DNA of 64,000 bases from Clostridia bacterium. Its GTDB lineage: Bacteria > Bacillota > Clostridia > Christensenellales > Borkfalkiaceae. Below are positions 2,889 through 54,836 of this stretch, piece by piece (positions within the stretch are counted from its first letter, which is position 1; the number at the start of each line of letters is the position of its first letter). The notes beneath the pieces are model-generated. The model was not told the DNA's origin and did no database searches. It saw nothing but the letters and a program-made list of their open reading frames with translations. A program made the translations under genes and the position numbers. The DNA is taken from positions 1-64,000 of the forward strand of contig JAFWBT010000007.1 in assembly GCA_017507005.1 (NCBI GenBank), in the 5' to 3' direction.

Positions 2889-2908
2889 GGGGGCAGGTAC
2901 GAGTTTAC
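2889..2908 (+). repeat. Dispersed repeat copy 1 (CAGGTA class), in a hairpin
   Basis: This copy reads GGGGGCAGGTACGAGTTTAC. With flanks it folds as AAGGGGGC(A)GGTA / TACCGCTCCCTT, a 12 bp stem around loop CGAGTT (about 2886-2917), lying between prfB and tsaD. Confidence 0.6.
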
Positions 2909-2936
2909 CGCTCCCTTTATGGTTTTAAGGAGAGTT

Positions 2937-4025
2937 ATGTACGAGCCTTTGAAAGGGATAGATTTGAATAAGGCAGAGCCGATTATTCTCGGCATAGAAA
3001 CGTCCTGCGACGAAACGGCAGCGGCGGTGATTCGCGGTAGAAAAATTTTATCGGACGAGATTGCCTCGTCGGCGGATATTCAGGCTTTGTACGGTGGCGT
3101 CGTGCCTGAAATCGCTTCGCGCGCGCATACCGACGCGGTGGCGGAAGTGGTGCAACGCGCTATCAAAAATGCAGGCATTACTCACGCCGATATCGACGCG
3201 GTGGCGGTGACGTACGGGGCAGGGCTGTTGGGCGCGCTGCTTGTGGGCGTGTCCTTTGCCAAGGCGTTCGCGTACGCGCTAAACAAACCGCTTATCGCCG
3301 TCAATCATATTCGCGGTCATCTCGCGGCGGCGTATCTGGATTGCCAAACGTTGCAGCCGCCTTTCGTGACATTGCTCGCTAGTGGTGGGCATACGGCGGT
3401 GCTGTATACGAAAACGCAATCGGAGTTTGAAATCCTCGGCGCGACGCTCGACGACGCGGCAGGGGAGGCTTTTGATAAAGTGGCGCGTGTTTTGGGTCTG
3501 AAATACCCTGGTGGGCCGAATATTGAACGGTGCGCGAAAGAGGGTACGGCGTGTGTGGAAATGCCCAAGATGCTCAAAGGCGGCGGTGGGTATAATTTCT
3601 CGTACAGCGGTCTTAAAACGGCGGTGATTAACTATTGCCACACCAAAGAACAAAAGGGTGAGGAATATTCCAAGGCGGACGTGGCGGCGTCTTTTCAGCA
3701 CGCGGCGGTGGACGTTTTGGTGGAAAAGACGGTGGCGGCGGCGCTGGAAAAGGGCGTTACGTTCGTCACGGCAGGCGGCGGCGTTGCGGCGAATACCTAT
3801 CTTCGCGAGAGCCTGAAAGCCGCTTGCGATAAAAACGGTTTGCAACTTGTATTGCCCGAAAAGCGTTATTGCACGGACAATGCGGCGATGATAGCGTCCG
3901 AGGGCTTGGTGCAGTATCGGCTGGGAAATTTCGCGGATATGACGTTGAACGCAAAGGCGTCTATCCCTTTGGCGGCGACGCTGGAAACGGTGCAAAGCCG
4001 TAGAGCAAACAGCGAGGGAGTGTAA
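2937..4025 (+). CDS. tsaD: tRNA N6-adenosine threonylcarbamoyltransferase
   Basis: TsaD (formerly Gcp/YgjD) transfers the threonylcarbamoyl group to A37 of ANN-decoding tRNAs, working with TsaB and TsaE. The signature IETSCDETAAA is at 20-30, and the metal ligands lie in VNHIRGH (His124 and His128), with a third ligand in TDNAAM near the end. An upstream in-frame ATG at 2919 exists, but AAGGAG (2927-2932) sits between the two ATGs, four bases before 2937, so 2937 is the better start (362 aa). The next gene begins 3 bp after the stop, suggesting one operon. Confidence 0.95.
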   Translation: MYEPLKGIDLNKAEPIILGIETSCDETAAAVIRGRKILSDEIASSADIQALYGGVVPEIASRAHTDAVAEVVQRAIKNAGITHADIDAVAVTYGAGLLGALLVGVSFAKAFAYALNKPLIAVNHIRGHLAAAYLDCQTLQPPFVTLLASGGHTAVLYTKTQSEFEILGATLDDAAGEAFDKVARVLGLKYPGGPNIERCAKEGTACVEMPKMLKGGGGYNFSYSGLKTAVINYCHTKEQKGEEYSKADVAASFQHAAVDVLVEKTVAAALEKGVTFVTAGGGVAANTYLRESLKAACDKNGLQLVLPEKRYCTDNAAMIASEGLVQYRLGNFADMTLNAKASIPLAATLETVQSRRANSEGV

Positions 4026-4028
4026 AGT

Positions 4029-5009
4029 ATGTGGGAACATCTTTGGCATAATTTTACGCACGCGCTCGAACATACGTGGCCGCTGTTGCCGTTTATTTTC
4101 GTGATTTACGCTGTTATGGAGCTGATAGAAAGCCGCGCGGATATGCAAAAAATCACACGGCTGAGTGGCGGATTAGGTCCGCTTGTCGGCGCGGCGACGG
4201 GGATTGTGCCGCAATGCGGTTTTTCCGTTATGGCGGCGAAATTATTCGAGCGGAAATATATCACAATTGGTACGCTGATTGCGATTTTTATGGCGACGAG
4301 CGACGAGGCGTTTATCATTATGCTCTCGTCCGTGGCGACGGACACGGGCGGCGTCAGTGGCGCGACGTGGGTGTTGCCGTTGCTATTTTCTAAAATTTTA
4401 ATCGGCGTGGGCGTGGGCTACGGGATAGACGGCGTGTTGCGGTTGTTGGGCTATAAACAGCTGCGTATGGCAATGCCGAAAACGGTGAACGGCGCGCCCG
4501 AAACCACGCACGAAATTTTCATACAGCGCTATTTGGATGAAAAAGACGTGGAAGTAAATTGTTCGTGCGGCAGACGTCACGACGGCGATAGCGCTTGGAA
4601 GAATTATCTTCTGTATCCGTTATTGCACGCGTTAAAAGTGGGCGTGTTTATCCTGCTCGTCAATTTTGCGTTAGAGCTTGTGATTCACGGCGTAGGCGGG
4701 GAGCAGGTATTCGTTGCGTTTATGCAAAAGAACCGCTTCGTGCAGCCGTTTATCACCTGCGCGGTGGGTATGATACCGAACTGCGCGTCCTCTGTCGTCA
4801 TTACGGAGACCTTTCTTAGCGGCGGCATTACGTTCGGTTCTTGCGTGGCAGGGCTGTGCGTAAACGCAGGTATGGGGTTCGTCGTGCTGTTTAGAAACGT
4901 GCGACAATGGAAACGCAATCTTTTGCTCGTGGGGGTTTGCTACGTTATCTCCGTTGTTATCGGGGTGCTGTGGAATCTCATATACCCGATTTCTACGCTC
5001 GTTGTTTAA
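4029..5009 (+). CDS. Putative heavy-metal exporter, ArsP_2-like multi-pass membrane permease
   Basis: This is a 326-residue integral membrane protein of the putative 10-TM heavy-metal exporter type (ArsP_2 family by recognition). Two similar halves each contain a proline/cysteine motif in a membrane segment: GIVPQCGFSV near 60 and GMIPNCASSV near 250. The central cytoplasmic loop has CSCGRRH, a plausible metal-binding patch. The order of two membrane blocks around a His/Cys loop fits the family; the substrate cannot be read from sequence. It starts 3 bp after tsaD, and its stop overlaps a possible SigB-type -35 element for the next operon. Confidence 0.75.
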   Translation: MWEHLWHNFTHALEHTWPLLPFIFVIYAVMELIESRADMQKITRLSGGLGPLVGAATGIVPQCGFSVMAAKLFERKYITIGTLIAIFMATSDEAFIIMLSSVATDTGGVSGATWVLPLLFSKILIGVGVGYGIDGVLRLLGYKQLRMAMPKTVNGAPETTHEIFIQRYLDEKDVEVNCSCGRRHDGDSAWKNYLLYPLLHALKVGVFILLVNFALELVIHGVGGEQVFVAFMQKNRFVQPFITCAVGMIPNCASSVVITETFLSGGITFGSCVAGLCVNAGMGFVVLFRNVRQWKRNLLLVGVCYVISVVIGVLWNLIYPISTLVV

Positions 5010-5030
5010 AAAGCAAGGGTTTGGTGGTAT
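5004..5030 (+). promoter_or_regulatory. Possible SigB/SigF-type promoter of the partner-switching operon
   Basis: GTTTAA (5004-5009), 15 bp, then TGGTAT (5025-5030) resembles the SigB consensus GTTTAA-N12-14-GGGTAT. No good sigma-A -35 is positioned for the overlapping TATAAT (5030-5035). Such a site would make the operon autoregulated by its own sigma factor. This is inference. Confidence 0.4.
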
Positions 5031-5074
5031 ATAATAAAAGAAAGAAGAAAACTCTTGGATAAGGAGAAAAAATC

Positions 5075-5383
5075 ATGCAAGAAGTAACGATAAAGGGAAT
5101 AGAAAACGAAGCGTTGGTAGTGGCGCTGTCGGGCGATATCGATTTGGGTAACGCCGAAGAATTTTATCAAGCGGTGATGGACGGGTATCAGGCGCAGCCT
5201 ATGAATATCCTGTTCGACTGCGCCGAGCTGGAATTTATCGACAGCACGACGCTGGGTACGTTCGTGAAAATTCTGAAAAAGGCAAAATCGGACGGGTACG
5301 GTATCAAGCTCGTTAATTTACAGCAGAAGATTAAGAAATTGTTTTTAATCTGCTCGCTCGATTCGATTATGGAGATTGCATAA
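5075..5383 (+). CDS. STAS-domain anti-sigma factor antagonist (RsbV/SpoIIAA type)
   Basis: This is a 102-residue single-domain STAS protein. The phosphorylatable serine lies in EFIDSTTLGTF (Ser57), the site an anti-sigma kinase phosphorylates in this family. In the unphosphorylated state such proteins bind the anti-sigma kinase and release sigma. AAGGAG precedes the ATG. Two ATPase-domain genes and a SigB-type sigma gene follow on the same strand with 1-18 bp gaps, so it is almost certainly the antagonist in a partner switch. Whether it senses general stress or something else cannot be told. Confidence 0.88.
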   Translation: MQEVTIKGIENEALVVALSGDIDLGNAEEFYQAVMDGYQAQPMNILFDCAELEFIDSTTLGTFVKILKKAKSDGYGIKLVNLQQKIKKLFLICSLDSIMEIA

Positions 5384-5384
5384 T

Positions 5385-5741
5385 ATGGAAAAATTTTCTG
5401 TATCGTTGCCCTTGACGGGTGAATATCTGACGACGGTGCGTTTGACGACGGGCGGGCTTTGCGCGCTCGCAGGGTTTGACGTGGACACGGCGGAAGATTA
5501 TAAAGTGTGCGTGACGGAGAGCCTGCTTATCGTAAAACGTAACGGCTTCCGCGAGGCGGATATCGAATTTACGGTGGGTGAAACGCTGCGTTGTGAGGTG
5601 CGCGGCAAACGCTGTGACGGGGCAAAGGAAGAAGAACTGGAAGAGGAAATTTCTCGCTCGTTGCTCGCGGCGCTTATCGGGGAAGTGGAGTTTGTAAAAA
5701 ATACGGAAGACAGAGTGGAAAAAATCGTATTTGAAGGGTAA
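5385..5741 (+). CDS. Probable anti-sigma factor, divergent GHKL-ATPase-like protein
   Basis: This 118-residue protein lies directly between the STAS antagonist (1 bp gap) and the sigma gene (3 bp gap), where RsbW/SpoIIAB sits in classical operons. The N-terminal layout (SVSLPLTGEYLTTVRLTTGGLC) matches the anti-sigma ATPase fold. The ATP-binding N-box is poorly kept (TESLLIVKRNG, where the family has an Asn in E..xN), and no clear G-rich box is visible. It may bind sigma without normal kinase activity. The ATG at 5385 has GGAGA ten bases upstream; a TTG nine bases earlier is less likely. Confidence 0.65.
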   Translation: MEKFSVSLPLTGEYLTTVRLTTGGLCALAGFDVDTAEDYKVCVTESLLIVKRNGFREADIEFTVGETLRCEVRGKRCDGAKEEELEEEISRSLLAALIGEVEFVKNTEDRVEKIVFEG

Positions 5742-5744
5742 GAA

Positions 5745-6479
5745 ATGGCAGACGAAAGGATAAACGAGCTGTTTAAGCGGTACAAAGAGACGGGCGACGT
5801 GGCGATTAGGAACCAAATAGCCGAAAAATATCTCTACATAGCCGATATTCTTGCCAAAAAATTCGTAGGCAGAGGCGTGGAATACGACGACCTAAAACAG
5901 GTCGCCTCGTTTGCGTTGCTTCGGGGTATCGATCGTTTTGATCCCGACCTTGGTATGCAGTTTACGACGTTCATCACGCCGACGATCACGGGCGAGATTA
6001 AGAATTATTTCCGTGATAAATCGCGTATGGTAAAGCTGCCAAGACGTTTGAGCGAGCTGAGCGCGCAGGCGCGGAATTTTTCCGCGGAATACGAGGCGAA
6101 ACGTGGCGTCAAGCCCAGCGTTAAGGCGATTGCCGAGGGGCTTGGGGTGACGGAAGAAGACGTTGTACGCGCTTTGGAAGTGGGCGGTACGGTATCACTG
6201 GACGGTATGGCGAGCGGTGAGGACGGGGAAACGACGTCGCTGTATTCGCTGATTGCCGACGACGAGGATAAGTACGAGGATTTTGAAACAAAAGAGATGT
6301 TAAAGACCGCGATGAAAGATTTTTCGGACACCGAAAAGGCGCTCGTCAAATGCCGCTACGTGGATGAATTGTCGCAGAGCGAAACGGCGAAACGCCTAGG
6401 TGTATCGCAGATGTTCGTATCGCGTATGGAGCGAAAAATACTCGTAAAATTAAGGGAAATATTAAAGGATTCGATGTAA
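5745..6479 (+). CDS. RNA polymerase sigma factor, SigB/SigF/SigG subfamily
   Basis: This is a 244-residue sigma-70 family protein with regions 2, 3 and 4. Region 2 contains EYDDLKQVASFALLRGIDRFD and FTTFITPTITGEIKNYFRD. Region 3 has LPRRLSELSAQ, and region 4 ends in LSQSETAKRLGVSQMFVSRME, the helix-turn-helix for the -35 box. Length and the MVKLPRR motif fit the alternative sigma factors controlled by partner switching rather than housekeeping sigma-A. It is embedded in its regulatory operon. The sporulation versus stress role is not decided by sequence alone. Confidence 0.92.
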   Translation: MADERINELFKRYKETGDVAIRNQIAEKYLYIADILAKKFVGRGVEYDDLKQVASFALLRGIDRFDPDLGMQFTTFITPTITGEIKNYFRDKSRMVKLPRRLSELSAQARNFSAEYEAKRGVKPSVKAIAEGLGVTEEDVVRALEVGGTVSLDGMASGEDGETTSLYSLIADDEDKYEDFETKEMLKTAMKDFSDTEKALVKCRYVDELSQSETAKRLGVSQMFVSRMERKILVKLREILKDSM

Positions 6480-6497
6480 ACGCATAAGGGGTAACGT

Positions 6498-6863
6498 ATG
6501 ATTTTCGAGGTGAAAAATTACGCTACGTTGCAGGCGGCGATTGACCGTCTGTGCGAGTTTTTAACGGCGAATGACGTGCCGAAAGACTGCGTGTTTGACA
6601 GCAGGCTGGTCGCGTGTGAGTTGCTGTCTAACGTACTGCGGCACGCAGACGGGCAGGCAGGGCTGCGCGGCGAGATTAAGGACGGCTACGTAGAGCTAAA
6701 AATATTGACGAAGCGTGTTTTTACGCCCGAAACGATTACCTGTGCGGAGTTGTATTCCGAGCACGGCAGAGGGTTGTTTTTGGTGAATACACTGTGCGAA
6801 GAACAAATATTTTCCGAAGAGGACGGCGTGCGTGTGTTGATACGTATCCGCGAGAGTGAATAG
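6498..6863 (+). CDS. RsbW-like serine-kinase/anti-sigma ATPase (HATPase_c_2)
   Basis: This 121-residue protein has a well-formed GHKL ATP site: N-box CELLSNVLRHADG (Glu41, Asn45) and G-box SEHGRGLFLVNTL (88-99). In RsbW-type proteins this site binds ATP, phosphorylates the STAS antagonist and holds sigma inactive. It follows the sigma gene by 18 bp and is closed by a strong terminator. The operon thus has two ATPase-like proteins around sigma, and this one looks catalytically better than the upstream one. It could be the real antagonist kinase or serve another STAS partner. Confidence 0.82.
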   Translation: MIFEVKNYATLQAAIDRLCEFLTANDVPKDCVFDSRLVACELLSNVLRHADGQAGLRGEIKDGYVELKILTKRVFTPETITCAELYSEHGRGLFLVNTLCEEQIFSEEDGVRVLIRIRESE

Positions 6864-6864
6864 A

Positions 6865-6900
6865 AAAAGCAGACCGATGCGGTGGTCTGCTTTTGTTTTT
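6865..6900 (+). terminator. Terminator of the sigma operon
   Basis: AAAAGCAGACC / GGTCTGCTTTT pairs around an 8-base loop and is followed by TGTTTTT. Confidence 0.9.
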
Positions 6901-6925
6901 TAATGGTGATATTTTGATAAAATAA

Positions 6926-6957
6926 GAGCCGACGGAGTGTTCCGTCGGCTCAATTTT
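6926..6957 (-). terminator. Terminator of the 7007-7513 gene (could act both ways)
   Basis: GAGCCGACGGA / TCCGTCGGCTC is a perfect 11 bp stem with a 4-base loop, flanked by A-rich and T-rich runs on both sides. It lies between two convergent genes. Confidence 0.8.
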
Positions 6958-7006
6958 TACATAGTTATACCGTATTATAAGCGTAAAGCGTTATAAAAAC
7001 GTCCTC

Positions 7007-7513
7007 TTAGCAGGTTTTCACCGAGAAAAGATACATCTTTTCGAGCAAGCCAGAGGGAATTCTTTCTCTATACTGTCCCATATAGATGAACAGCTTGCGG
7101 AAGAATTCTTTATTGTCGCCGCCCACCTGATAACCAGGGATTTCGGGCATAACGCCTTTGTATTTCAAGATAAACAATTCGGTGAACTGATTTCTTTCTT
7201 CTTCGTTCAACGTTGCGATGAACGGATCGAAGCTCTTAGAATTGTAAAAATCGTAGCCCGCCGTTTTTGCGTGACCAAACAACGAAAGAGGATCCACCGT
7301 GGGATTTACTTCTTCCGCCATTTCTACGCCTTCGATAGGGCCGCCTTCGTAAAGATACGCTTCTGCGTATTCTTCCACTTTGCAAGGCGTTTCGGGTTCT
7401 GCTTCCACCGTTGCAGGTGCAACTTCTACGGGAGCTGCTTCCGCCGTTTCTACCACTTCTTCAGCGACTACGGGTGCTTTTTCTTTCTTTTTGAACAATT
7501 TTTTGAAAATCAT
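7007..7513 (-). CDS. Hypothetical acidic protein, 168 aa
   Basis: I do not recognise this protein. A basic N-terminus (FKKLFKKKEKAP) is followed by a low-complexity Ala/Val/Glu/Pro region (about 14-50) and a folded-looking C-terminal half containing LNEEERNQFTELFILKYKG and EFFRKLFIYMGQYRERIPSG. There is no membrane segment or signal peptide. Translation is well supported: AGGAGGT lies 7 bases before the ATG, and a full sigma-A promoter lies upstream. The basic-then-acidic layout could suit binding to membrane or nucleic acid, but that is speculation. Confidence 0.75.
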   Translation of the reverse strand: MIFKKLFKKKEKAPVVAEEVVETAEAAPVEVAPATVEAEPETPCKVEEYAEAYLYEGGPIEGVEMAEEVNPTVDPLSLFGHAKTAGYDFYNSKSFDPFIATLNEEERNQFTELFILKYKGVMPEIPGYQVGGDNKEFFRKLFIYMGQYRERIPSGLLEKMYLFSVKTC

Positions 7514-7554
7514 TTTATACCTCCTATGTCAAGGCATACTTATTATCTTGAAAC

Positions 7555-7583
7555 ATTATAACACTTTTTCCGCGCTTTGTCAA
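7555..7583 (-). promoter_or_regulatory. Sigma-A promoter for the 7007-7513 gene
   Basis: On the minus strand TTGACA (7578-7583), a 17 bp spacer and TATAAT (7555-7560) match the consensus exactly. Confidence 0.88.
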
Positions 7584-7697
7584 TATATATATAAAGAAAT
7601 TTTTATTTTTTCTTTGAAAAAGTTTTACTTTTTTCAAGGGGAATTCCCTTTTTTTAATAAAGAAAGGATAGGATATGAAAAGTTTTTCAAAAAACCC

Positions 7698-7726
7698 TTG
7701 AAAAATTTTTCCATTTAGGGTATAAT
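7698..7726 (+). promoter_or_regulatory. Sigma-A promoter for the PucR-type regulator
   Basis: TTGAAA (7698-7703), 17 bp, TATAAT (7721-7726). A small hairpin AAGGGGAATTCCCTT with a T run (7636-7655) lies upstream in the divergent gap. Confidence 0.85.
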
Positions 7727-7788
7727 AGAGGGAAGAAAATGAATATGGCTCGTCACAGCGAAAAAAAACCGTGGCGATAGGAGAAAAT

Positions 7789-8808: not shown

Positions 8809-8884
8809 AAAACGACTACCCGTGCTGCGGCGACGTATTTGGGGTATGAAACGCCGACGGAACGGGTATATTTTTTAGGAGAAA

Positions 8885-10348: not shown

Positions 10349-10360
10349 TTTTTAAAACGA

Positions 10361-10382
10361 CGGTACCGTGTACGCGTTGAAA
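10361..10382 (+). repeat. Dispersed repeat copy 3 (CCGTGTA class)
   Basis: The sequence reads CGGTACCGTGTACGCGTTGA and continues AA. Its first part is the palindrome ACGGTACCGT. Confidence 0.65.
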
Positions 10383-15759: not shown

Positions 15760-15779
15760 AATGCCAACAACCGAATACG

Positions 15780-16045
15780 AACGCACGGTATCCCTTTTGC
15801 GGAAGGGATTTAATAGGGAAGAGAGAGTGTTTTAAAGGGCGTGTTTTGAAAGAAATTTTTAAGACCGCATAGCCTTAAAAAAGCGTTGCTCCGCTGCCGC
15901 CGCAACCGTAAGAACGTCTTGCCGTCTTTCACTGCGAAAAAGTGGGAAGGAAGGGGCATGTACGCGACGAACGACGATATTTGTCGAAAAATGTATCGCG
16001 TATAGGGCGTTGTAAGCCGGGAGACCTGCCGCGTGTTTTAGAGGA
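15780..16045 (+). promoter_or_regulatory. Cobalamin riboswitch
   Basis: The B12-box GTAAGCCGGGAGACCTGCC is at 16012-16030. Upstream are other conserved pieces in the right order: TAATAGGGAA (15812-15821), CCGCCGCAACCGTAAG (about 15898-15913), and CACTG...GTGGGAAGG (15930-15950). Cobalamin binding should lower expression of the lipoprotein and ECF genes downstream. A dispersed repeat copy is inserted in the variable peripheral segment between GGGAAGG and the B12 box. Confidence 0.93.
15953..15971 (+). repeat. Dispersed repeat copy 5 (CATGTA class), inside the riboswitch
   Basis: GGGGCATGTACGCGACGAA lies between conserved elements of the cobalamin riboswitch. Confidence 0.6.
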
Positions 16046-16081
16046 TAGGAATTTTGCGGACGGGCGAAAGGAATAGTTGTA

Positions 16082-19826: not shown

Positions 19827-20182
19827 TGGAAGAAATACAGCTGGAAGGCAATGAAAAATTACAAAGATTTATACAGCTGTTGTGTGATTTGAATAATCAA
19901 ACGGTGGAGATTTTGAAAACGGGCAATATTGAGATATTGTACGCAATGAACGACACCGTAGAGGAAATGTTTTCCATACAGGCGAACAGCAAGGAAGAGG
20001 TATACACCGAAATCGACGAGGACGCGCAGTGTATTTATAAAAACTTCAACGCGATCATCACGATGCTCAATAGCAACGACGAGGACGAAATCGACGAGGC
20101 TACCTCTATCGCCGTGAAAAAATTCCTGCACAACATTTTCGACGCGAACGTGCGTATCGTTCGCGCATACGGCTTGGCGTAA
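19826..20182 (+). CDS. Hypothetical small helical acidic protein
   Basis: I do not recognise this 118-residue protein. It is rich in Glu, Asp, Asn and Ile, predicted all-helical (KLQRFIQLLCDLNNQTVEILKTG and IAVKKFLHNIFDANVRIVRAYGLA, described in pieces), with no membrane segment. It is coupled to the UDP-sugar pyrophosphorylase through a TAATG overlap, so expression is tied to that enzyme. Confidence 0.75.
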   Translation: MEEIQLEGNEKLQRFIQLLCDLNNQTVEILKTGNIEILYAMNDTVEEMFSIQANSKEEVYTEIDEDAQCIYKNFNAIITMLNSNDEDEIDEATSIAVKKFLHNIFDANVRIVRAYGLA

Positions 20183-21530: not shown

Positions 21531-21642
21531 GTAAGAGTAGCCTTCGGCGCGTAAAGTGTCACCGAACGGGACGTTGTCGGTGAACGAAAGAAAACGGAAA
21601 TTTAGATGTTCGTTTTCTGCGGTGTCGGGGCGCGTCCGCTAC
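21531..21642 (+). promoter_or_regulatory. Tetrahydrofolate (THF) riboswitch
   Basis: Conserved THF-I pieces appear in order: AGAGTAG (21534-21540), GCGTAAAGTGT (21549-21559), GGGACGTTGT (21568-21577), AACGAA (21583-21588), a variable hairpin (GAAAACG...CGTTTTC), GCGGTG (21619-21624) and CGCGTCCGCTAC (21631-21642). It controls the folate transporter gene downstream. Confidence 0.9.
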
Positions 21643-29463: not shown

Positions 29464-30186
29464 ATGGAAACGTTTTATATTTCACAAGATTGGTGGCAAT
29501 TTTTACTGCTGGCTATCGTATGCTATTTTATCGGCTGTTTTAATTTTGCGCGGCTCATTTCCCGCAAGAAAAACCGCGATATCACGCAGGTGGGCAGTGG
29601 TAATCCCGGCACGATGAATATGACGCGTGAATTTGGGCTGAAAATCGGCTTTATCACGTTTTTGTGCGACGCGCTCAAAGGCGGCTTGCCAGCGGTTGTC
29701 AGCTATTTTCTCTATCGGAACAGCGTGTTCGCAGGCACGAGCTTGCTTGTTTCCGATTTCACGAGATATTTCGTGGGGCTGTGCGTCGTAATCGGGCATA
29801 TTTTTCCCGTCACGATGAAATTCAAAGGCGGCAAGGGGATTGCCTCGACACTGGGTTTGTTTTGGATGTGCTTGGCGTGTGAAAATCCTTGGTGGCTGCT
29901 GTTTGGGTTTGGCTGTCTTTGTATCGTCGTTTTGTATATCTACACAGCGGAATGGGGCTCGATAGGCTCTCTTTTAGGGGTGTCGGGATTTAGCATTATT
30001 CAGCTGACGATATTTATATTGCGTTACGGGAAATACCCCGTGGACGCGTACATGGTAGCCCTGTATCTGATTATTTTTACCATCAACGTACTCACGTGGG
30101 TGGCGCATCATAAAAATCTCGCGCGCGTGTTTGCAGGCGAAGAACACCGTACGTCTATTAAAAAATTAGCAAAAAAAAGTAAATAA
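29464..30186 (+). CDS. plsY: Acyl-phosphate:glycerol-3-phosphate acyltransferase
   Basis: PlsY makes lysophosphatidate from acyl phosphate and glycerol 3-phosphate at the membrane, the first step of phospholipid synthesis. The 240-residue protein has the three family motifs: GSGNPGTMNMTREFG (about 42-56), the FPVTMKFKGGKGIAST segment (about 117-132), and a conserved C-terminal membrane part ending in VAHHKNLARV. About five to seven membrane segments are predicted. It starts 141 bp after der, beyond the tandem repeat. Confidence 0.93.
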   Translation: METFYISQDWWQFLLLAIVCYFIGCFNFARLISRKKNRDITQVGSGNPGTMNMTREFGLKIGFITFLCDALKGGLPAVVSYFLYRNSVFAGTSLLVSDFTRYFVGLCVVIGHIFPVTMKFKGGKGIASTLGLFWMCLACENPWWLLFGFGCLCIVVLYIYTAEWGSIGSLLGVSGFSIIQLTIFILRYGKYPVDAYMVALYLIIFTINVLTWVAHHKNLARVFAGEEHRTSIKKLAKKSK

Positions 30187-35910: not shown

Positions 35911-36277
35911 GGGGGTGCACCGGATTCGATTGCCGGTGAGCGAAAGGATAAGCATACCGTAGACGGAGCGGCTACGATAAAACGTTCCACCTAAATTTAA
36001 ATGCAGATAGAAATGCAAATTACGCTCTTGCAGCGTAACTTCGTTTTATAACGAAACGTCGCGCCCGGTTTATCCGTCGGCTGGGGTCGTGGCGTCAATA
36101 AGACGGAACACTCTTGAAAAAATCGGAAGGTGTTTTTTTAAGAGTATTCAGCCTTCTGCGTTTTACACAGCGTGTTTACCCGCGGTGTAAGAGTAAGAAA
36201 TAATAGATAAACTAAGTATGTAGAAAGTTTTTTGGCAGCCGCGTAAGACGTGAGTTCGACTCTCACCACCTCCACCA
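35911..36277 (+). ncRNA. ssrA: Transfer-messenger RNA (tmRNA)
   Basis: tmRNA frees stalled ribosomes and adds a degradation tag. The 5' end GGGGGTG pairs with CACCTCC near the 3' end, which closes with the T-arm GAGTTCGACTCTC and CCA (36275-36277). The tag frame starts at the resume codon GCA (36003) and reads A-DRNANYALAA before TAA (36036-36038); the YALAA ending is the usual protease signal. The total is 367 bases. The 3' end is the target of the island that follows. Confidence 0.95.
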
Positions 36278-36412: not shown

Positions 36413-38125
36413 ATGGCGGAAAAGAAAGAAAAGCAATATGTGAGCGATAATGCTCGCCTTATGGCGGAATGGGATTTTACCAAAAATAACGCATCAATAG
36501 ACCTATGTAAATTAAGTGTTAATAGCAATATTTCAGCATGGTGGGTTTGTAATAAATGTGGGTATGAATTTTTTAGTAGCATTCGTTCACGAAAAAACGC
36601 AAAAGAATGTAAGAAATGTAGTCTAGTTTCTCGATCAAAGATATGGTTGAAAAAAAGAGGCTCTTTTGCTGATAAGCACCCTGAATTAGTAAAAGAATGG
36701 CATCCGTTAAAGAATGGAGATTTAAAACCGAATCAAATTCTTGTTGATTCACCGCAAAAGTTTTGGTGGATTTGTAGTAAGGGGCATGAATGGGAGGCAA
36801 CTCCCAACAATCGCAACTACGGGAAAGGTTGCCCGATTTGTGCTAATCAATCGGTTTGGGTTGGATATAACGATTTGGCAAGTCAAAACCCTAGTTTAGC
36901 GAAGCAATGGCACCCCTATCGAAATGGCAATATCCATCCATCAAATGTTATTGTAACATCAAACAAGAAAGCTTGGTGGATATGTAAAAATGCTCATGAA
37001 TGGGAAGCGGCGATTAGTGATCGTAGTCGGATGGGATTAGGTTGTCCATATTGTTCAAACCAAAAACTTCTCGAAGGTCACAACGATTTAGCATCAGTAA
37101 ATCCAAATCTTGCAAAAGAATGGCATCCTATTAAAAATGGCGATTTAACCCCCGATATGGTACAAGCTGGTTCAAATAGTAAGGCTTGGTGGATTTGTGA
37201 GAAAGGTCACGAATGGTATGCTCAAATATCTCATAGAAATAAGGGTGTTGGTTGTCCACACTGTGCTAAAGAGCTAAATACTAGTTTTCCAGAGCAAGCA
37301 ATATTTTACTATTTCAGCAAAATCACAAACGCTGAAAATCGATATCTTTTTGATGGAAATTATGAGATTGATATCTATCTACCTGAATATAAAATAGGCA
37401 TAGAATACGATGGTGTATATTTTCACAGCAAAGAGAGCGCGAAAGCAATAGAACATAAGAAAGAAAAAGCATTGCAAGATGTTGGAATAACCTTAATACG
37501 AGTCAAAGAAACAGAAACCTTAAATAATTCCACGGACACGGAATATATTTTCTACTATTTGTATTCGTCTAATGCTAAACATCTTGAACCGGTTATTCAC
37601 CGTTTGCTTAACAAAGTTAGTGAAATTACAGGGCAGAAAATTCACATAGATGTTGATATTGAACGCGATAGATCGAATATATATGAACTGTATGTGGAAA
37701 GAGAAAAACAAAGGAGTTTGCTTGCGCTAAAGCCTACACTTGCAGTCGAATGGCATCCCACTAAAAATGGACGATTAAAGCCGGATATGGTATCATTATA
37801 TTCAAACAAAATTGTATGGTGGCAATGTAAACATGGCCATGAGTGGCAGGCTTCGGTGTGTAACCGTAGTAATGGTAATGGATGTGCGATTTGTTCCAAT
37901 AAGAAGGTGTTAAGAGGCTTCAATGATCTTCAAACAAGATATCCAGAGATTGCTGTACAATGGCATCCAACTAAAAATGAAGGTAAAATGCCAACAGATG
38001 TCTTTCCATTTTCCAATAAAAAAGCTTGGTGGATTTGCGAAAAAGGTCACGAATGGCAAGCAGCAATTAATAGTCGTTGCAATGGAAATGGATGTCCTTA
38101 TTGCTCAGGTCGCAAAAAATCTTAA
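36413..38125 (+). CDS. Six-repeat zinc-ribbon (DUF4379-like) protein with Vsr-type nuclease domain
   Basis: This 570-residue protein has six treble-clef zinc units of about 60 residues, each with an EWHP.KNG start, a WWICxxGHEW core and a CPxC end: near 13-69, 90-143, 160-214, 230-284, 440-494 and 510-564. Between units four and five lies a Vsr/PD-(D/E)XK-like nuclease domain (about 291-395), with FPEQ (Glu294), YEIDIYLP (Asp320) and IGIEYDGVYFH (Glu331, Asp333) as likely catalytic residues. The repeats probably bind nucleic acid. AAAGGAGAG precedes the ATG. Low GC and island setting show transfer. A defence or DNA-processing role is inference. Confidence 0.85.
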   Translation: MAEKKEKQYVSDNARLMAEWDFTKNNASIDLCKLSVNSNISAWWVCNKCGYEFFSSIRSRKNAKECKKCSLVSRSKIWLKKRGSFADKHPELVKEWHPLKNGDLKPNQILVDSPQKFWWICSKGHEWEATPNNRNYGKGCPICANQSVWVGYNDLASQNPSLAKQWHPYRNGNIHPSNVIVTSNKKAWWICKNAHEWEAAISDRSRMGLGCPYCSNQKLLEGHNDLASVNPNLAKEWHPIKNGDLTPDMVQAGSNSKAWWICEKGHEWYAQISHRNKGVGCPHCAKELNTSFPEQAIFYYFSKITNAENRYLFDGNYEIDIYLPEYKIGIEYDGVYFHSKESAKAIEHKKEKALQDVGITLIRVKETETLNNSTDTEYIFYYLYSSNAKHLEPVIHRLLNKVSEITGQKIHIDVDIERDRSNIYELYVEREKQRSLLALKPTLAVEWHPTKNGRLKPDMVSLYSNKIVWWQCKHGHEWQASVCNRSNGNGCAICSNKKVLRGFNDLQTRYPEIAVQWHPTKNEGKMPTDVFPFSNKKAWWICEKGHEWQAAINSRCNGNGCPYCSGRKKS

Positions 38126-43210: not shown

Positions 43211-43316
43211 GCGTTGGGCGAAAAAGGATAAAAAAATATACGAAAAAAGTCTAAACAGAAATGCTATATAAAAATAAAAACAAATACTAAAAAAACGTGC
43301 TTTTTTATAAAAAGCA

Positions 43317-43347
43317 GGGAGCATGTACGCGTTGAACGCTTTTTTTG
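43317..43347 (+). repeat. Dispersed repeat copy 15 (CATGTA class)
   Basis: GGGAGCATGTACGCGTTGAA then CGCTTTTTTT. The short GCG/CGC pair plus T run could act as a weak terminator. Confidence 0.7.
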
Positions 43348-47380: not shown

Positions 47381-47385
47381 ACGTC

Positions 47386-48126: not shown

Positions 48127-48160
48127 ATATTGCCTCCTTACGTTTTCGTCGTAGATATAG

Positions 48161-48188
48161 CAAGCCTTCGGTATCGTCCGAAGGCTTG
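48161..48188 (-). terminator. Hairpin between glnN and nadE
   Basis: CAAGCCTTCGG / CCGAAGGCTTG is a perfect 11 bp stem with a 6-base loop. No T run follows on the minus strand, so it may be an mRNA processing or stability element rather than a terminator. Confidence 0.55.
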
Positions 48189-48200
48189 TTCGTTGTTGCG

Positions 48201-50291: not shown

Positions 50292-50483
50292 ATGCGGTTC
50301 TCCTTCGTAGATAATTAGCGTAATAATAACGTGCTTTTTTAGCGCGTTTTTTGCATAGCGACACGGCGCAAGCGTCCTTTGTGGATTTTATAAAAGAGTG
50401 GACGAATCTGTGCAAACGTCAATGCAAATAAGGAAAGGCAAAGGCAACAGGGTAGTATCACCTCGTGGCGCCTCTGCCATTAT
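50292..50483 (-). promoter_or_regulatory. Structured leader of glnN
   Basis: The leader is about 192 bases. Near its 5' end GGCAGAGGC pairs with GCCTTTGCC (one mismatch), enclosing GCCACGAGGTGATACTACCC. A Gly/Leu-type T-box, lysine or glutamine riboswitch could not be recognised. The region may bind a regulator or be an uncharacterised element. Confidence 0.45.
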
Positions 50484-50489
50484 GCGTAT

Positions 50490-50518
50490 ATTATACATTC
50501 TTTGGCGGAATTTGTCAA
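50490..50518 (-). promoter_or_regulatory. Sigma-A promoter of glnN
   Basis: On the minus strand TTGACA (50513-50518), 17 bp, TATAAT (50490-50495), a full consensus match. Confidence 0.9.
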
Positions 50519-50652
50519 CGATTTGAAAGGGTTTTCAGGGAAACGAACGCGCAGGAAAAAGAAAAAACGAATTTTTCTTGCATTTTTTTATAATATTTAT
50601 TTATTTTTACACAGTTTTTTATTTTTTATTAGTTTTACTATGAGAAAATTTA

Positions 50653-50680
50653 TTGACAAATATTGAAAAAGTAGTATAAT
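50653..50680 (+). promoter_or_regulatory. Sigma-A promoter of the repeat-built lipoprotein gene
   Basis: TTGACA (50653-50658), 16 bp, TATAAT (50675-50680). The 90-base leader has an inverted pair TATACGG / CCGTATA (50687-50737). Confidence 0.82.
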
Positions 50681-50779
50681 TATATGTATACGGTGAGTGT
50701 TTTTTTTTGTTTACCTCATTAAGTATGCGCCGTATAAAAAATAGTTCAAAAAAATCTTTTTAAAAAAGGAGAAAGAAAG

Positions 50780-52519
50780 ATGAAAAAATTACTTATGTTT
50801 CTTGCATCGGTAATGCTCGTCGGTACGATGGCAGTTGCAACGGGTTGTGCAGACTTGTTTGCTCCCATCTCTAGCGGCGACGTTTCGAGCGAAGAAAGTG
50901 TGTCCAGTGAAGGTGCTGCTTCTAGCGAAGAAGAAGCTTCCAGCGAAGGTGCTGCTTCCAGCGAAGAAGCTGCTTCTAGTGAAGGTGCTGTTTCCAGTGA
51001 AGAAGCTACGTCTAGCGAAGAAGCTACGTCTAGCGAAGAAGAAGCGGCTATGCCTACGTTTGTTGTAGGTATGCCTACGACGGTGGAAATTCCCGCAGAC
51101 GGTAGCGTAACGATTGAGAGCGCTCCCAATATGATGGGATTCCATTTGGAAGGCAAGTATCAGGTAACGTGGGATGAATCGATTACTAACCTTCAGGTAT
51201 ATTGTGGTGTGCAGCCTGTAGCAAACGGTGACGTTATCGAAGCGACCAATCCCTATGCGGCTACGCAGCTTAACATTTCCACGACGGATGGCGCGGCTCT
51301 TACCGTGAGAATTATGGTAGCTGAATACGTTGCGCCTGCTACGGTTGTAACGCTTGGCGAAAATGAAATCGACGTTGCTGCATGGGAAACCGTAAAATGC
51401 TGCTTCACGGCAACGACGGCTGGTTCGTATTCGTTCACGACGGAAAGCGACAATGCTGACCTTGGTGTTGGTGACGAATTTACCTTTGAATGGGTAGGTT
51501 TCCCTTACACCGTTGAATTAGCGGAAGGCGAAGCGTTCAATTTTGAACTTTCCACGCTTGATTTCTCGGCTGCAACTATCACGTTCACGATTGCTGAGGC
51601 TGTTGCGGTTCCTGCAAACGTACCTTTCACGGTTGGTATGCCTACGTTGGTGGAAATCCCCGCTGACGGTAGCGTAACGCTTGAAAGCACCGCAAATATG
51701 GTGGGGCAGCATTTGGTAGGCGACTATCAGGTAACGTGGGACGAATCGGTTACCAACCTTCAGGTATATTACGGTATGCAGCCTGTAACCAACGGCACTG
51801 TTATTACCGTAGCTAACCCTATGATGCCTACGCAGCTCACCGTTTCCACGACGGACGGCGCGGCTCTTACCACGAGAATTATGATTGCTGAATATATTGT
51901 TCCTCCCACGACGGTTGCTCTGGGTGCAAACTCTATTGAAGTAACGGACGGTTTCAAGGGCGTAAAAATTAGCTATACGGCAGCAACGGCTGGCGCGTAT
52001 ACGTTTACGGCAGCAGCAGACGAAGAAAACGCTCAGTTGATTATGGAAGACGAATATGGCGCTGAAATGCTTGATTTCCCGTACACGGTATCGTTGGGCG
52101 AAGGCGAAGAAATCGTTCTTATCATCACGACGGCTGATTTCAGTGCTGATACTGTTGATTTCGTGATTGCCGAAGCACAGAAAGTATCCGTTTGGTTTAT
52201 GTATTTGCTTGGTGATACAATGGATTTCTTGCCCGAAGGAGTTAGCGTTGTGTTGGAAGACGGCACCACGGTAACCACGACGCAGGAAATCGAAGAAGGC
52301 GTTGCTGTTCTCTCTGCTGAAGTTTATGCAGGTGTAGAATTCACCTTCAAATTTGCAGGCGTTGAAAACTATACGGTTACGTGCGAAAGCTTTGGTACGG
52401 CTGAACCTTGCGAGAATGTTAGCTGCTCTGAAGACGGCTGGTGGACGATTGTAGCTGAACCGATGAATGAAGAAGACAACACTTTCTTGTGTCTTTGCGT
52501 TGTTACGGTTAGCGAATAA
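50780..52519 (+). CDS. Surface lipoprotein with Ser/Glu stalk and duplicated domain
   Basis: The 579-residue protein has a signal peptide with lipobox VATGC (Cys23). Residues 31-90 are a low-complexity stalk of SSEE/SSEGA units. Two copies of a domain of about 180 residues follow (about 93-273 and 282-463), each beginning F.VGMPT.VEIPADGSVT and sharing QVTWDESITNLQVY-type and TTDGAALT segments. The final 110 residues form a different domain. The copies look like beta-sandwich, probably ligand- or wall-facing. Function is not known. AAAAAGGAG precedes the ATG; the gene is a single unit. Confidence 0.85.
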   Translation: MKKLLMFLASVMLVGTMAVATGCADLFAPISSGDVSSEESVSSEGAASSEEEASSEGAASSEEAASSEGAVSSEEATSSEEATSSEEEAAMPTFVVGMPTTVEIPADGSVTIESAPNMMGFHLEGKYQVTWDESITNLQVYCGVQPVANGDVIEATNPYAATQLNISTTDGAALTVRIMVAEYVAPATVVTLGENEIDVAAWETVKCCFTATTAGSYSFTTESDNADLGVGDEFTFEWVGFPYTVELAEGEAFNFELSTLDFSAATITFTIAEAVAVPANVPFTVGMPTLVEIPADGSVTLESTANMVGQHLVGDYQVTWDESVTNLQVYYGMQPVTNGTVITVANPMMPTQLTVSTTDGAALTTRIMIAEYIVPPTTVALGANSIEVTDGFKGVKISYTAATAGAYTFTAAADEENAQLIMEDEYGAEMLDFPYTVSLGEGEEIVLIITTADFSADTVDFVIAEAQKVSVWFMYLLGDTMDFLPEGVSVVLEDGTTVTTTQEIEEGVAVLSAEVYAGVEFTFKFAGVENYTVTCESFGTAEPCENVSCSEDGWWTIVAEPMNEEDNTFLCLCVVTVSE

Positions 52520-52540
52520 TTAAAATAACGAAAAAAGGAA

Positions 52541-52574
52541 CGGTAAGCGCAAACGCGCTTGCCGCTCTTTTTTT
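52541..52574 (+). terminator. Bidirectional terminator between convergent genes
   Basis: CGGTAAGCGC / GCGCTTGCCG with loop AAAC, flanked by A and T runs. Confidence 0.85.
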
Positions 52575-52611
52575 ATGGCCTGTTTTCCGATTAGTATTCT
52601 ATCGTTTGTTT

Positions 52612-53349
52612 TTATTCGTCGGTTGGCGGGTCTTGCTTTTCGGGCAGGAATTTCCAATACCGCGCGGGCATATAGCCACGCATTTGTCGCAGTCGTTCCC
52701 GAGAGGGGATATTGACGGCGGCGTAATACCTTTTCCACAACGCCTGCCACGCGTTCTCGTCGGCAGAGAGCATAATTTCCGCGTCGCAAAGCGGCGCGAG
52801 AAAAACGTTCTTTCCGTCGTACACGGCGGCTTTTTTTCGTTTGGTGTCGTGCAGTACGAAAGGAAACTGTGGCAGTCTTGCCCGAAAATGCGGTGCGAGT
52901 AGGTCGCAAATGTCATTGTCGGGCGCAAAGGGCGCGTACAAAGCGCCGCTCGCCGTTTCCATAAACCGTATAAAGCCGTGGAATCGATGCACTTCAAAGC
53001 CGACCTTACGCATACATTCCACAGCGGCGAATACGTCGGGATTAGACAGCATTTTGCCAATCGGGCGTTTTTCTTTTGTCAACGTGTGGAAATAACGAAA
53101 AGCGATTTGTTCGTTGTTATCCATACCGCTACGAAGTAGGGTGTCAAAATCGCGCATACAATCACGATCGAAACAAAGCAAACGATTTTTTGCCTTTTCA
53201 GCGCGTAAAGGCTCGGTGTCTATAAAAAGAGTCCGTTCTCCCAAAGGCAACTGCGTTTGCTTGGACGTAAGCAACGCATTTTCGTCCTTGTATGCCGCTA
53301 AAAACGCCGTTAAAAAACCGTTTTTCGTTCCGTCAAAGACATAGACCAT
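52612..53349 (-). CDS. TIGR03915-type DNA metabolism protein (radical-SAM partner, DUF4130-like)
   Basis: This 245-residue protein matches the family encoded beside a radical SAM DNA-modification/repair protein: YVFDGTKNGFLTAFLAAY at the N-terminus, KMLSNPDVFAAVECMRKVGFEVHRFHGFIRF in the middle, and an uracil-DNA-glycosylase-like C-terminus in longer relatives (here only RGYMPARYWKFLPE). Its partner gene is directly upstream (63 bp), with a dispersed repeat in the gap. AAGGAGG precedes the ATG. A role in DNA repair is the family annotation, not proved. Confidence 0.82.
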   Translation of the reverse strand: MVYVFDGTKNGFLTAFLAAYKDENALLTSKQTQLPLGERTLFIDTEPLRAEKAKNRLLCFDRDCMRDFDTLLRSGMDNNEQIAFRYFHTLTKEKRPIGKMLSNPDVFAAVECMRKVGFEVHRFHGFIRFMETASGALYAPFAPDNDICDLLAPHFRARLPQFPFVLHDTKRKKAAVYDGKNVFLAPLCDAEIMLSADENAWQALWKRYYAAVNIPSRERLRQMRGYMPARYWKFLPEKQDPPTDE

Positions 53350-53366
53350 GGTAGCCTCCTTTTTTA

Positions 53367-53395
53367 TTCGTCGCGTACACGGTATGCCCGTTTTT
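53367..53395 (-). repeat. Dispersed repeat copy 16 (CCGTGTA class), inside an operon
   Basis: On the minus strand GGGCATACCGTGTACGCGAC then GAA. It lies in the 63 bp gap between the two cotranscribed DNA repair genes. Confidence 0.75.
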
Positions 53396-53412
53396 GCTTT
53401 TGTTTTTTGTGT

Positions 53413-54684
53413 TTATAATTGTCCCGTTAAGGAGATGAGCGCATTTTGCGGCGAGGAAATTTGCGCGAATAAATCGAGCTGTTGCGCGTTGTCGCTTTGC
53501 TCGGCGGCGGCTAAAAAACCTCGTATCTGTGTTTCGTTTTTCGCGCCGAAAAACTTTCCGTTGCAGGTGATAAAATGTTTCGCGCGTTTTAAAGCGACGC
53601 GCATTTTCGTCAAATCCTCAAAAGAAAGCGTCGCATATTTTCGCGCCTCTAAGATTTTATAAGCATTTTTTGCGCCAATCCCTGGTACGCGCAGTAGCGT
53701 TTCCAAGGGCGCGCGGTTGATTTCCACGGGAAAAAGATGCATATTTTTCAACGCCCAAGCGCATTTAGGGTCGTATTCCATAGACAAATTTTCGCCCTCG
53801 GCTACCAATTCTTCCACGGAAAAACCGTAAAATCGCAACAGCCAATCCGCTTGATACAAGCGGTGTTCGCGCAGTTGTCCCGTCGGTTTGTCGGGCAACA
53901 ACGAATCTTGCACGACGGGTACGTACGAGGAATAATAGACGCGTTTCATATCCATAGAACGGTATAACGCCTGCGTCAGCCGCAATATCTGCCCGTCTGC
54001 CTCAGGGGACGCCCCAACAATCATCTGCGTCGTCTGCCCCGCAGGCAAAAAATATCCCTTGTATTGTCCCTTTTTCCGCTCTTCCGCGTATTGCTGCTTT
54101 TTCACGGTAAGCTCTTTCATAGGCAATAAAAGGCTTTCTTTCGTCTTTTGCGGCGCGAGCAGTTTTAGGCTCTTTTCAGAGGGTAACTCGATATTATAGC
54201 TCATCCTATCGACGTATTTCGCCGCCTCCTCCATCAGTCGCTCGTCTGCGTAGGGGATACCTTTTAAGTGAATATAGCCGTGAAAATGGTACTCCGTGCG
54301 CAGTTTTTTCACGGTAAGCACTAGCCGCTCCATAGTATATTCAGGATTTTTACAAACGGCAGAGGACAAAAACAGCCCCTCTATGTAATTCCGCTTGTAA
54401 AAATCAATGACGAGCTGACAAATCTCGTCAGGCGTCGCGCTCGCCCGCGGTACGTCCGCGTCGGCGCGGTTTGGACAATACTTGCAATGATAAATACAAT
54501 CGTTGCTGAGCAGTATTTTCAATAGCGAAATACACCGCCCGTCGGGCGTAAAGGAGTGACAGCACCCCGCCACGTAACCGTTGCCCATGCCGCCTGCATT
54601 TTTTCGTCCGCTCCCCGAAGAAGAACACGATACGTCGTATTTCGCACTCTCCGTTAAAATTTTCAACCGTTCTTCCGTAATCAT
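53413..54684 (-). CDS. Putative DNA repair radical SAM protein (TIGR03916-type), leaderless
   Basis: This 423-residue protein has a radical SAM core with CIYHCKYCPNR (CX3CX2C motif). The N-terminus has SSSGSGRKNAGG, seen in this family, and the C-terminal helix-hairpin-helix (TLLRVPGIGAKNAYKILEAR) suits DNA binding. The family is named for its link to the TIGR03915 partner, encoded just downstream. The frame runs 13 codons upstream, but those codons lie over a promoter. The ATG at 54684 has no ribosome site, and the predicted transcription start falls on its A, so it is probably leaderless. Confidence 0.85.
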   Translation of the reverse strand: MITEERLKILTESAKYDVSCSSSGSGRKNAGGMGNGYVAGCCHSFTPDGRCISLLKILLSNDCIYHCKYCPNRADADVPRASATPDEICQLVIDFYKRNYIEGLFLSSAVCKNPEYTMERLVLTVKKLRTEYHFHGYIHLKGIPYADERLMEEAAKYVDRMSYNIELPSEKSLKLLAPQKTKESLLLPMKELTVKKQQYAEERKKGQYKGYFLPAGQTTQMIVGASPEADGQILRLTQALYRSMDMKRVYYSSYVPVVQDSLLPDKPTGQLREHRLYQADWLLRFYGFSVEELVAEGENLSMEYDPKCAWALKNMHLFPVEINRAPLETLLRVPGIGAKNAYKILEARKYATLSFEDLTKMRVALKRAKHFITCNGKFFGAKNETQIRGFLAAAEQSDNAQQLDLFAQISSPQNALISLTGQL

Positions 54685-54690
54685 ACGTAT

Positions 54691-54719
54691 AGTATAGCGC
54701 ATACGCAAACAAAAGTCAA
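54691..54719 (-). promoter_or_regulatory. Sigma-A promoter giving a leaderless mRNA
   Basis: On the minus strand TTGACT (54714-54719), 17 bp, TATACT (54691-54696). Predicted +1 is 54684. Confidence 0.78.
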
Positions 54720-54740
54720 ACATTTGTTCGCATATTTTTC

Positions 54741-54774
54741 AAAAAAGAAACGCCGTACGATGGACGTCGGCGTT
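54741..54774 (-). terminator. Terminator of pnuC
   Basis: On the minus strand AACGCCG / CGGCGTT is followed by TCTTTTTTG. Confidence 0.75.
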
Positions 54775-54784
54775 GATAACGATA

Positions 54785-54804
54785 GGGGCAGGTATGCGTT
54801 GAAT
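54785..54804 (+). repeat. Dispersed repeat copy 17 (CAGGTA class)
   Basis: GGGGCAGGTATGCGTTGAAT, 6 bp before copy 18. Confidence 0.7.
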
Positions 54805-54810
54805 AAAAAA

Positions 54811-54836
54811 CGGGCGTACCAGGTACGCGTTGAAAA
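54811..54836 (+). repeat. Dispersed repeat copy 18 (CAGGTA class)
   Basis: GGGCGTACCAGGTACGCGTT then GAAAA, containing the inverted pair GCGTACC / GGTACGC. It abuts the pnuC stop codon (54837-54839). Confidence 0.7.

Follow-up and report, generated by a model that had tools for sequence, protein, structure and literature searches.

A 64,000-nucleotide stretch of the genome of a Clostridia bacterium from an uncultured gut lineage (GenBank assembly GCA_017507005.1, contig JAFWBT010000007.1, positions 1 to 64,000; hereafter the window) carries many copies of a short DNA word that is dispersed within and between genes. We found that this word is 30 bp long and that, on average over its copies, it lies at the centre of two arms, each of about 100 bp, in which the AT content oscillates in register with the word. 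The interpretation that we tentatively place first is that the word is the nucleation and phasing site of a predicted DNA-wrapping coat protein, which would set the register of the coat on the chromosome.

The family was defined with a 30-bp position weight matrix (PWM), a copy being, unless stated otherwise, a match of at least 14 bits. Its consensus, AAAACGAGGGGGGCATGTACGCGTTGAACG, is non-palindromic, has a variable middle and holds about 27 bits in total. The genome to which the window belongs (the own genome) is a metagenome-assembled genome (MAG) of 1.56 Mb, 71% complete. In 807 kb of it, the PWM found 294 copies, against 1 when the model was reversed. The first 464 kb contained 205 copies, against 1 with the reversed PWM and 3 in an order-1 Markov sequence, and 343 kb of held-out sequence contained 89, against 0. 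The density was higher in the first stretches (0.44/kb) than in the held-out ones (0.26/kb) because the former had been picked from contigs rich in exact matches. A sequence-only reading of the window had listed 18 copies of a nameless repeat, which it took to be a signal and neither a CRISPR (clustered regularly interspaced short palindromic repeats) array nor an insertion sequence (IS), and in this it was right. All 18 positions belonged to one family, with PWM scores of 21.0-38.9 bits, and GTACGCGTTGAA was indeed present 7 times; seven further copies of at least 14 bits brought the total to 25. The core proposed in that reading, GTAYGCGNNGAA, was exact at 12 of the 18 positions and deviated at 2889, 8921, 20231, 21649, 24935, and 41439. 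Three extra exact core matches in the window (10867, 24091, and 41598, all on the minus strand) lacked the rest of the motif. A count of the core in the whole own genome, which had been suggested as a check, gave 173 occurrences, against 7 for the reversed pattern. The four 5' flanks described earlier were merely a sample of the variable 10-nucleotide middle found between AAAACG and CAKGTAYGCGTTGAACG. The family is real and larger than first noted.

Averaging the AT content over the copies revealed an 11.6-bp oscillation, locked to the word and extending ~100 bp on each side (~230 bp overall). With 426 copies from four species, the fit of the left arm gave a period of 11.60 bp and an amplitude of 0.071 (R2 0.80), and that of the right arm a period of 11.75 bp and an amplitude of 0.093 (R2 0.78). 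The size-matched null (60 draws) had a mean of 0.008 and a maximum of 0.016, and past 100-120 bp the amplitude was 0.018, close to this null. The AT peaks were near -98, -87, -75, -64, -53, -41, -30, -17, and -6 on the left and near +34, +46, +58, +70, +82, +93, +104, and +115 on the right, which corresponds to eight to nine phased turns per side and about 20 in all, as averaged over copies. The arms were mirror-symmetric, the best centre being word position 14.0 (correlation 0.96, 354 isolated copies).

The wave was seen separately in intergenic copies (105), in copies deep within genes in the sense (79) and antisense (38) orientations, and in all three score classes. It was also present in 103 copies of 34 congener loci that were outside the training of the matrix and were scored with the unchanged own-genome PWM. 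The amplitudes were 0.073-0.118, against an in-gene null (n about 60) with a mean of 0.021 and a maximum of 0.035, and the peak positions agreed mostly to 1-2 bp (up to 4 bp) across copy classes. The arms fall outside the 30 columns of the PWM. Since the wave was found in each copy class and in untrained loci, it is a product of neither codon periodicity nor the matrix. A set of 4885 control A-tracts from the same genome showed only a ~2% ripple.

We compared copies located within genes with the corresponding regions of orthologs (14 genes, up to 42 species aligned). In 83 of 103 intragenic copies, the local length differed from the ortholog median by -1 to +3 residues, the difference being 0 in 54 of these; since several species have copies at the same sites, the 103 cannot be counted as independent. 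In the gene at 29464-30186, which we take to be PlsY-like, the antisense copy reads TTC AAC GCG TAC, then CTG, ATG, or ACG, then GTA. Among the 25 sequences of the genus with valine at this last site, 23 used GTA and the two exceptions scored below 4 bits (hand count). Other intragenic copies sit in peptides that are conserved in homologs, as in TatD and a release factor (read by eye).

The sequence-only reading had stated that it would fail if coding constraint explained all copies. It did not: 676 open reading frames (ORFs) contained 170 copies (110 sense and 60 antisense), while synonymous resampling yielded 29-38 (25-27 sense, 4-11 antisense) and permutation of codons within genes 42-49 (34-35 sense, 8-14 antisense). 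At a threshold of at least 20 bits, the ORFs contained 131 copies, against 10-14 and 20-23, respectively. Intragenic copies were accordingly 3.5- to 6-fold above the synonymous-codon expectation. The pattern of point substitutions suggests that the word is favoured as DNA.

The AT content of the whole genome has a matching periodicity. The peak of the AT autocorrelation was at 11.4-11.6 bp in the own genome and in three related carriers (G039, G027, and G035), whereas it was at 10.2 bp in the wordless G046 and at 10.4 bp in 39 loci of other Clostridia, which hold no copy of the word. After detrending and removal of 150 bp around each match of at least 6 bits to the own-genome PWM, the period was 11.8 bp in the own genome, 11.5 bp in G039, 11.8 bp in G027, and 11.9 bp in G035, as compared with 10.7 bp in G046 and 10.5 bp in the 39 other loci. 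The power at 11.4 bp was 3 in G046 and 89-269 in the carriers. Prokaryotic genomic periods span 9.7-11.8 bp according to the accessible part of PMC7537859, and the carriers therefore lie at the long end. Phased AT tracts of 10-11 bp occur in many bacterial genomes; as far as the text available for PMC4132750 and PMC7537859 goes, their role is disputed, one view being that they form a nucleoid packaging code.

The word is widespread among close relatives, which are MAGs named 'Clostridia bacterium' or 'Clostridiales bacterium', the titles of many of which mention the gut of sheep, goat, roe deer, or water deer. GTAYGCGTTGAA occurred 117 times in the own genome and 0-104 times in 48 congeners; in 32 genomes from other families, the count was 0-4. 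At loci surrounding one orthologous gene, 1-11 copies of at least 18 bits were present in 38 of 40 congener loci (L151-L190) and none in 40 more distant loci (L191-L230). At least 10 model matches (E<=0.1) were found in 54 of 57 genomes, the remaining ones being G002 (0), G001 (3), and G046 (5); these genus-wide counts are lower bounds, at most ~129 candidates having been scored per genome.

The spelling of the word varies among species. ACGGTACGCGATGA was found in G039 (9 times), G086 (8), G084 (2), and G026 (1); the remaining 53 of the 57 genomes, among them the own genome, had none. G007 uses another spelling, with forms such as GGGGCAGGGATTTGACGAACG (15 hits of at least 14 bits in 99 kb, against 0 reversed), and the low counts of some congeners are explained by such changes. 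No family signal was detected in G046, where the re-estimated PWM drifted (30 hits against 5 reversed). Because the same procedure was used for G039, part of its 101 hits (4 reversed) may be spurious. Other 9-10-mers were over-represented as well, namely AGCTAGCTGCA and GGTCGAGTTAA in G039 and CTCCCCTTA and CCTTATGGTAAG-like words in G007.

A simple ORF call placed 109 of the 294 copies between genes, although in the first sample intergenic DNA accounted for ~11% of bases. For 103 of these 109, the density was 1.49/kb in convergent gaps, 1.34/kb in co-directional gaps, and 0.41/kb in divergent gaps (P 0.0016 for convergent versus divergent). Copies were more frequent on the leading than on the lagging strand (198:78 overall, 42:17 for the C-rich class between genes). 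This excess is mostly due to G content: the strand counts were 38:26 for copies in which G did not exceed C, and a strand regression beyond G content left a small intercept in the own genome alone (0.44 +- 0.18, as compared with -0.06 +- 0.28 for G039). The copies had been described as not tandem, which is roughly so, yet 14 same-strand pairs were spaced by 31-32 bp and 7 by 41-43 bp, with none at 44-52 bp. The class of the middle differed in 22 of 25 close neighbours. From pair spacing alone, a 10.5-bp rhythm was not significant.

The 25 copies of the window are the following:

2881..2910, plus strand: intergenic copy, 30.6 bits
4691..4720, plus strand: weak copy within an ORF, 16.6 bits
8913..8942, plus strand: copy at the 5' end of an S41 peptidase ORF, 21.0 bits
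10234..10263, minus strand: antisense copy within the S41 peptidase ORF, 21.6 bits
10354..10383, plus strand: copy in a convergent gap, paired with the 10386 copy (32 bp), 35.1 bits
10386..10415, plus strand: second copy of the 10354/10386 pair, 26.0 bits
15944..15973, plus strand: copy within a cobalamin riboswitch match (15769-16047), 24.1 bits
16589..16618, plus strand: copy across a stop codon and the next start codon, 34.3 bits
20224..20253, plus strand: copy 3' of an ORF ending at 20182, overlapping a doubtful minus-strand ORF, 30.2 bits
20305..20334, plus strand: copy in the same region as the 20224 copy, 21.3 bits
21643..21672, plus strand: copy adjoining a tetrahydrofolate (THF) riboswitch match (21531-21642), 29.9 bits
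24934..24963, plus strand: copy in the N-terminal tail of signal peptidase II, 31.2 bits
26456..26485, minus strand: antisense copy in a presumably pseudouridine-synthase-like gene, at a site common to many congeners, 27.4 bits
27505..27534, plus strand: copy in a radical SAM/DUF512 gene, at a site common to many congeners, 38.9 bits
30038..30067, minus strand: antisense copy in the presumed PlsY-like gene, at a site common to ~20 congeners, 24.7 bits
33083..33112, minus strand: copy in an intergenic gap, 35.1 bits
35144..35173, minus strand: antisense copy in a GH95 gene, 30.1 bits
41437..41466, minus strand: copy in a convergent gap, paired with the 41480 copy (43 bp), 28.0 bits
41480..41509, minus strand: second copy of the 41437/41480 pair, 27.0 bits
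43309..43338, plus strand: copy holding the start codon of an L-fucose isomerase ORF, 36.6 bits
47883..47912, plus strand: antisense copy within an ORF, 20.3 bits
53365..53394, minus strand: intergenic copy 5' of a ribosome-binding site, 28.4 bits
54776..54805, plus strand: copy in an intergenic gap, paired with the 54807 copy (31 bp), 30.4 bits
54807..54836, plus strand: second copy of the 54776/54807 pair, 36.6 bits
62023..62052, plus strand: weak copy within an ORF, 14.8 bits

At some ORF starts, both the ATG and a purine-rich stretch are provided by a copy (window 43309-43338; L099:18452-18481; L102:4419-4448). Two 20-kb stretches of the own genome contained no copy of at least 14 bits; one (L136) holds a histidine operon with an oligopeptide transporter and the other (L148) encodes large, mostly unassigned proteins. 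At the Rfam gathering threshold, the window matched only transfer-messenger RNA (tmRNA) and the THF and cobalamin riboswitches, and no curated RNA family matched the copies. After the tmRNA (35911-36277; tag ADRNANYALAA) comes a gene (36413-38125) whose product has DUF4379 treble-clef repeats.

How could such a word be read? We consider it a little short of an even chance that it acts as the nucleation and phasing site of a coat protein. A putative protein would nucleate at the word in a sequence-specific manner, and the coat would then spread along the arms, and along the weaker periodicity elsewhere, as on a track. A period above 10.5 bp would reflect a right-handed superhelical path, as in the p6 complex of phage phi29 or in plectonemes. 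Promoters would stay free of coats because divergent gaps hold few copies, and pairs at 31-32 and 41-43 bp would hold two words in one AT register. The model for this idea is p6, which, in the part of PMC10899789 available to us, touches the minor groove every 12 bp (every 11 bp for p6 of GA-1), forms a right-handed superhelix, and spreads from nucleation sites located in bendable DNA. In the arms of the word the likeness is a sequence correlate only, an AT periodicity of 11-12 bp over more than 100 bp. A spreading coat accounts better than gyrase for the period, the length of the arms, the way in which they fade, and the periodicity of the genome as a whole, and we therefore rank the coat first and gyrase second. 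Among the functions suggested by the sequence-only reading, a partition signal comes close to this if taken broadly as a signal for chromosome structure. In its complete form, the proposal would be a bacterial counterpart of nucleosome positioning, in which a species-specific word nucleates a right-handed coat with an 11.6-bp register of about nine turns in both coding and noncoding DNA, the AT period of the genome having shifted to suit; we hold this fuller version to be slightly less probable than the nucleation site itself.

Several points weigh against a coat. We found no candidate coat protein, no search having been aimed at one beyond gyrase; among the small basic proteins listed from the own-genome stretches, none could be named as a candidate. 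p6 itself reads bendability rather than a fixed word and acts at the ends of phage DNA, whereas here a word of ~27 bits occurs hundreds of times in a cellular genome. The wave is known as an average over copies only. It fades gradually (0.106 at -26, 0.044 at -98, 0.026 at -122), and a curved plectoneme tip would fade too. Mirror centres at 8.5 (0.92) and 20.0 (0.88) were nearly as good as 14.0, and in G035 the best centre was 20.0. Because of the range of prokaryotic periods, 11.6 bp alone is not diagnostic. G007, with its other spelling, had a period of 10.9 bp (from 99 kb only), and copies of G039 in other spellings were left unmasked, since the masking used the own-genome PWM. Pairs at 31-32 bp were frequent in the own genome only. 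The local length of intragenic copies differed by at least 4 or by -4 residues in 20 of 103 cases, some of them via poorly aligned leader regions. Finally, shared and unshared genes were not clearly distinguished by their density of copies (0.267/kb for genes matched at 60% or more, 0.378 at 40-60%, 0.086 below 40%, and 0.226 without a match).

The second explanation, which appears rather unlikely, is that the copies are strong DNA gyrase sites, cut within the word, with the arms wrapped on the C-terminal pinwheels of GyrA and positive supercoils being relaxed behind genes. The own genome encodes what looks like a complete gyrase, comprising gyrB and gyrA, the latter with six pinwheel repeats (L093:14877-19926), and a copy of 38 bits lies ~200 bp downstream of gyrA. 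With what we take to be the GyrA-box motif, we also found GyrA-box-like motifs in this genome. The preference of the copies for convergent over divergent gaps would fit such a role, as would the layout of a 30-bp centre with two arms symmetric about position 14.0. In the available text of PMC6379681, the E. coli gyrase motif is made of a 36-bp centre and two GC-periodic arms that are symmetric about the cut, a layout shared by the strong gyrase site of Mu in the portions of the literature accessible to us. However, the E. coli motif is described there without a fixed word and with arms of 47 bp and a period of 10.75 bp, as compared with a fixed word, ~100 bp, and 11.6 bp here. The Mu site, taken as a positive control, was indecisive to unfavourable: around its annotated gyrase cut, the AT phase runs opposite (z -1.65 at 20 bp) to the one seen from the word's best mirror centre, and it matches for the near-best centres at 8.5 or 20.0 only.

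It is less probable still that the arms are intrinsically curved DNA that places the word at the tip of a plectoneme, where it would be read by an SMC complex, a polymerase, or a topoisomerase. In the part of PMC4132750 that we could access, a period longer than 10.5 bp is interpreted as plectonemic, and phased AT tracts are associated with plectonemes and their apices. The mirror symmetry of the arms agrees with this, but a 27-bit word with species-specific spellings would be left unexplained.

We judge it equally improbable that the word is a label of self-DNA, of the uptake-sequence or Chi type, that steers DNA exchange or repair. The DNA uptake sequence (DUS) of Neisseriaceae and the uptake signal sequence (USS) of Pasteurellaceae resemble our word in being present in many copies, in genes and in gaps, and they too are reported to arise by point substitution and to form dialects, as far as the text available for PMC3630211 and PMC7811141 indicates. 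A substitution origin, the use of both strands, and dialects are traits of such labels. A ComEC-like protein was found in 57 of 57 congeners, though pilus motor genes were nearly absent, and an AddB-like protein in 56 of 57. However, AddB was also found in G001 and G046, which are poor in the word, and all AddB hits fell short of the curated cut-off. The T2SSE motor (PF00437) was over the cut-off in only 4 of 57 congeners (one borderline), 26 others having weaker matches (E<=0.001) only, and T2SSF (PF00482) in 3 of 57. The own genome, at 71% completeness, had neither. Many congener MAGs are incomplete, and T2SSF was found in 1 of the 12 with at least 90% completeness and at most 5% contamination. 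The replication polarity of the copies is largely compositional, and neither an uptake sequence nor Chi predicts ~20 phased turns. The earlier suggestion of a role in DNA uptake thus agrees with the spread and the dialects and conflicts with the lack of a pilus motor in nearly all congeners; the word is unlikely to be a conventional uptake sequence. Chi is usually short, and a 30-bp word of 27 bits is not a short signal of the Chi or KOPS (FtsK orienting polar sequence) type, the leading-strand excess being, moreover, mainly compositional. HIP1 of cyanobacteria is likewise an over-represented word that is swapped for other words in some relatives; in the accessible descriptions, it is an 8-bp palindrome tied to methyltransferases, in contrast with the 30-bp non-palindrome described here.

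That a mobile mini-element inserted the copies, as the sequence-only reading had considered, is hardly credible: intergenic enrichment (109/294), close pairs, and linked middle positions would be in line with it, but conserved genes showed no 10-residue insertion, 22 of 25 pair neighbours differed in class, there was no fold and no link with PF01797, and several of the richest carriers had no Y1 transposase. A miniature inverted-repeat transposable element or other inserted repeat was rejected for genic copies, which showed no insertion relative to empty orthologs. Elements of the REP/RAYT (repetitive extragenic palindrome and its associated transposase) or IS200 type were rejected since G035, G011, G024, G004, and G020 are rich in copies without a PF01797 match and no conserved hairpin was seen; a single PF01797 match, IS200-like by eye, was present in the own genome, and 26 of the 81 searched genomes contained the family. 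The fold search gave 0 consensus pairs in 74 copies. With no Rfam match to the copies either, a hairpin or RNA element was discarded, and the suggestion of RNA-acting elements is likewise not supported, 60 of 170 ORF copies being antisense. An origin from a peptide tag or tmRNA tag (one frame reads GGRYALN) was dismissed because ORF copies also occur in other frames and in antisense.

A full-text literature search, mostly without subscription papers, retrieved nothing that describes a word of this kind flanked by phased arms. Some of its features recur in gyrase sites, p6, uptake words, HIP1, and the cyanobacterial 'structural code'; none of these combines a word, dialects, and ~20 phased turns. 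The last of these is, in the sources available to us, a genome-wide set of phased AT tracts of about 11 bp with which Synechocystis promoters are aligned; the anchor there is the promoter, whereas here it is a dedicated word that is rare in divergent gaps. The element would become a variant of strong gyrase sites if its reader proves to be gyrase.

Since a defined word anchors the AT phase, the packaging code gains an address. Carriers can be compared with wordless related species, with genome-wide periods of 11.4-11.9 bp in the former and about 10.5 bp in the latter. In these metagenomes, the word would mislead the annotation of repeats, CRISPR, or promoters. If the coat exists, the bacterium would have sequence-positioned chromatin; if gyrase is the reader, the copies would form a genome-wide set of fixed strong gyrase sites. 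With either reader, the word constrains codon choice in hundreds of genes.

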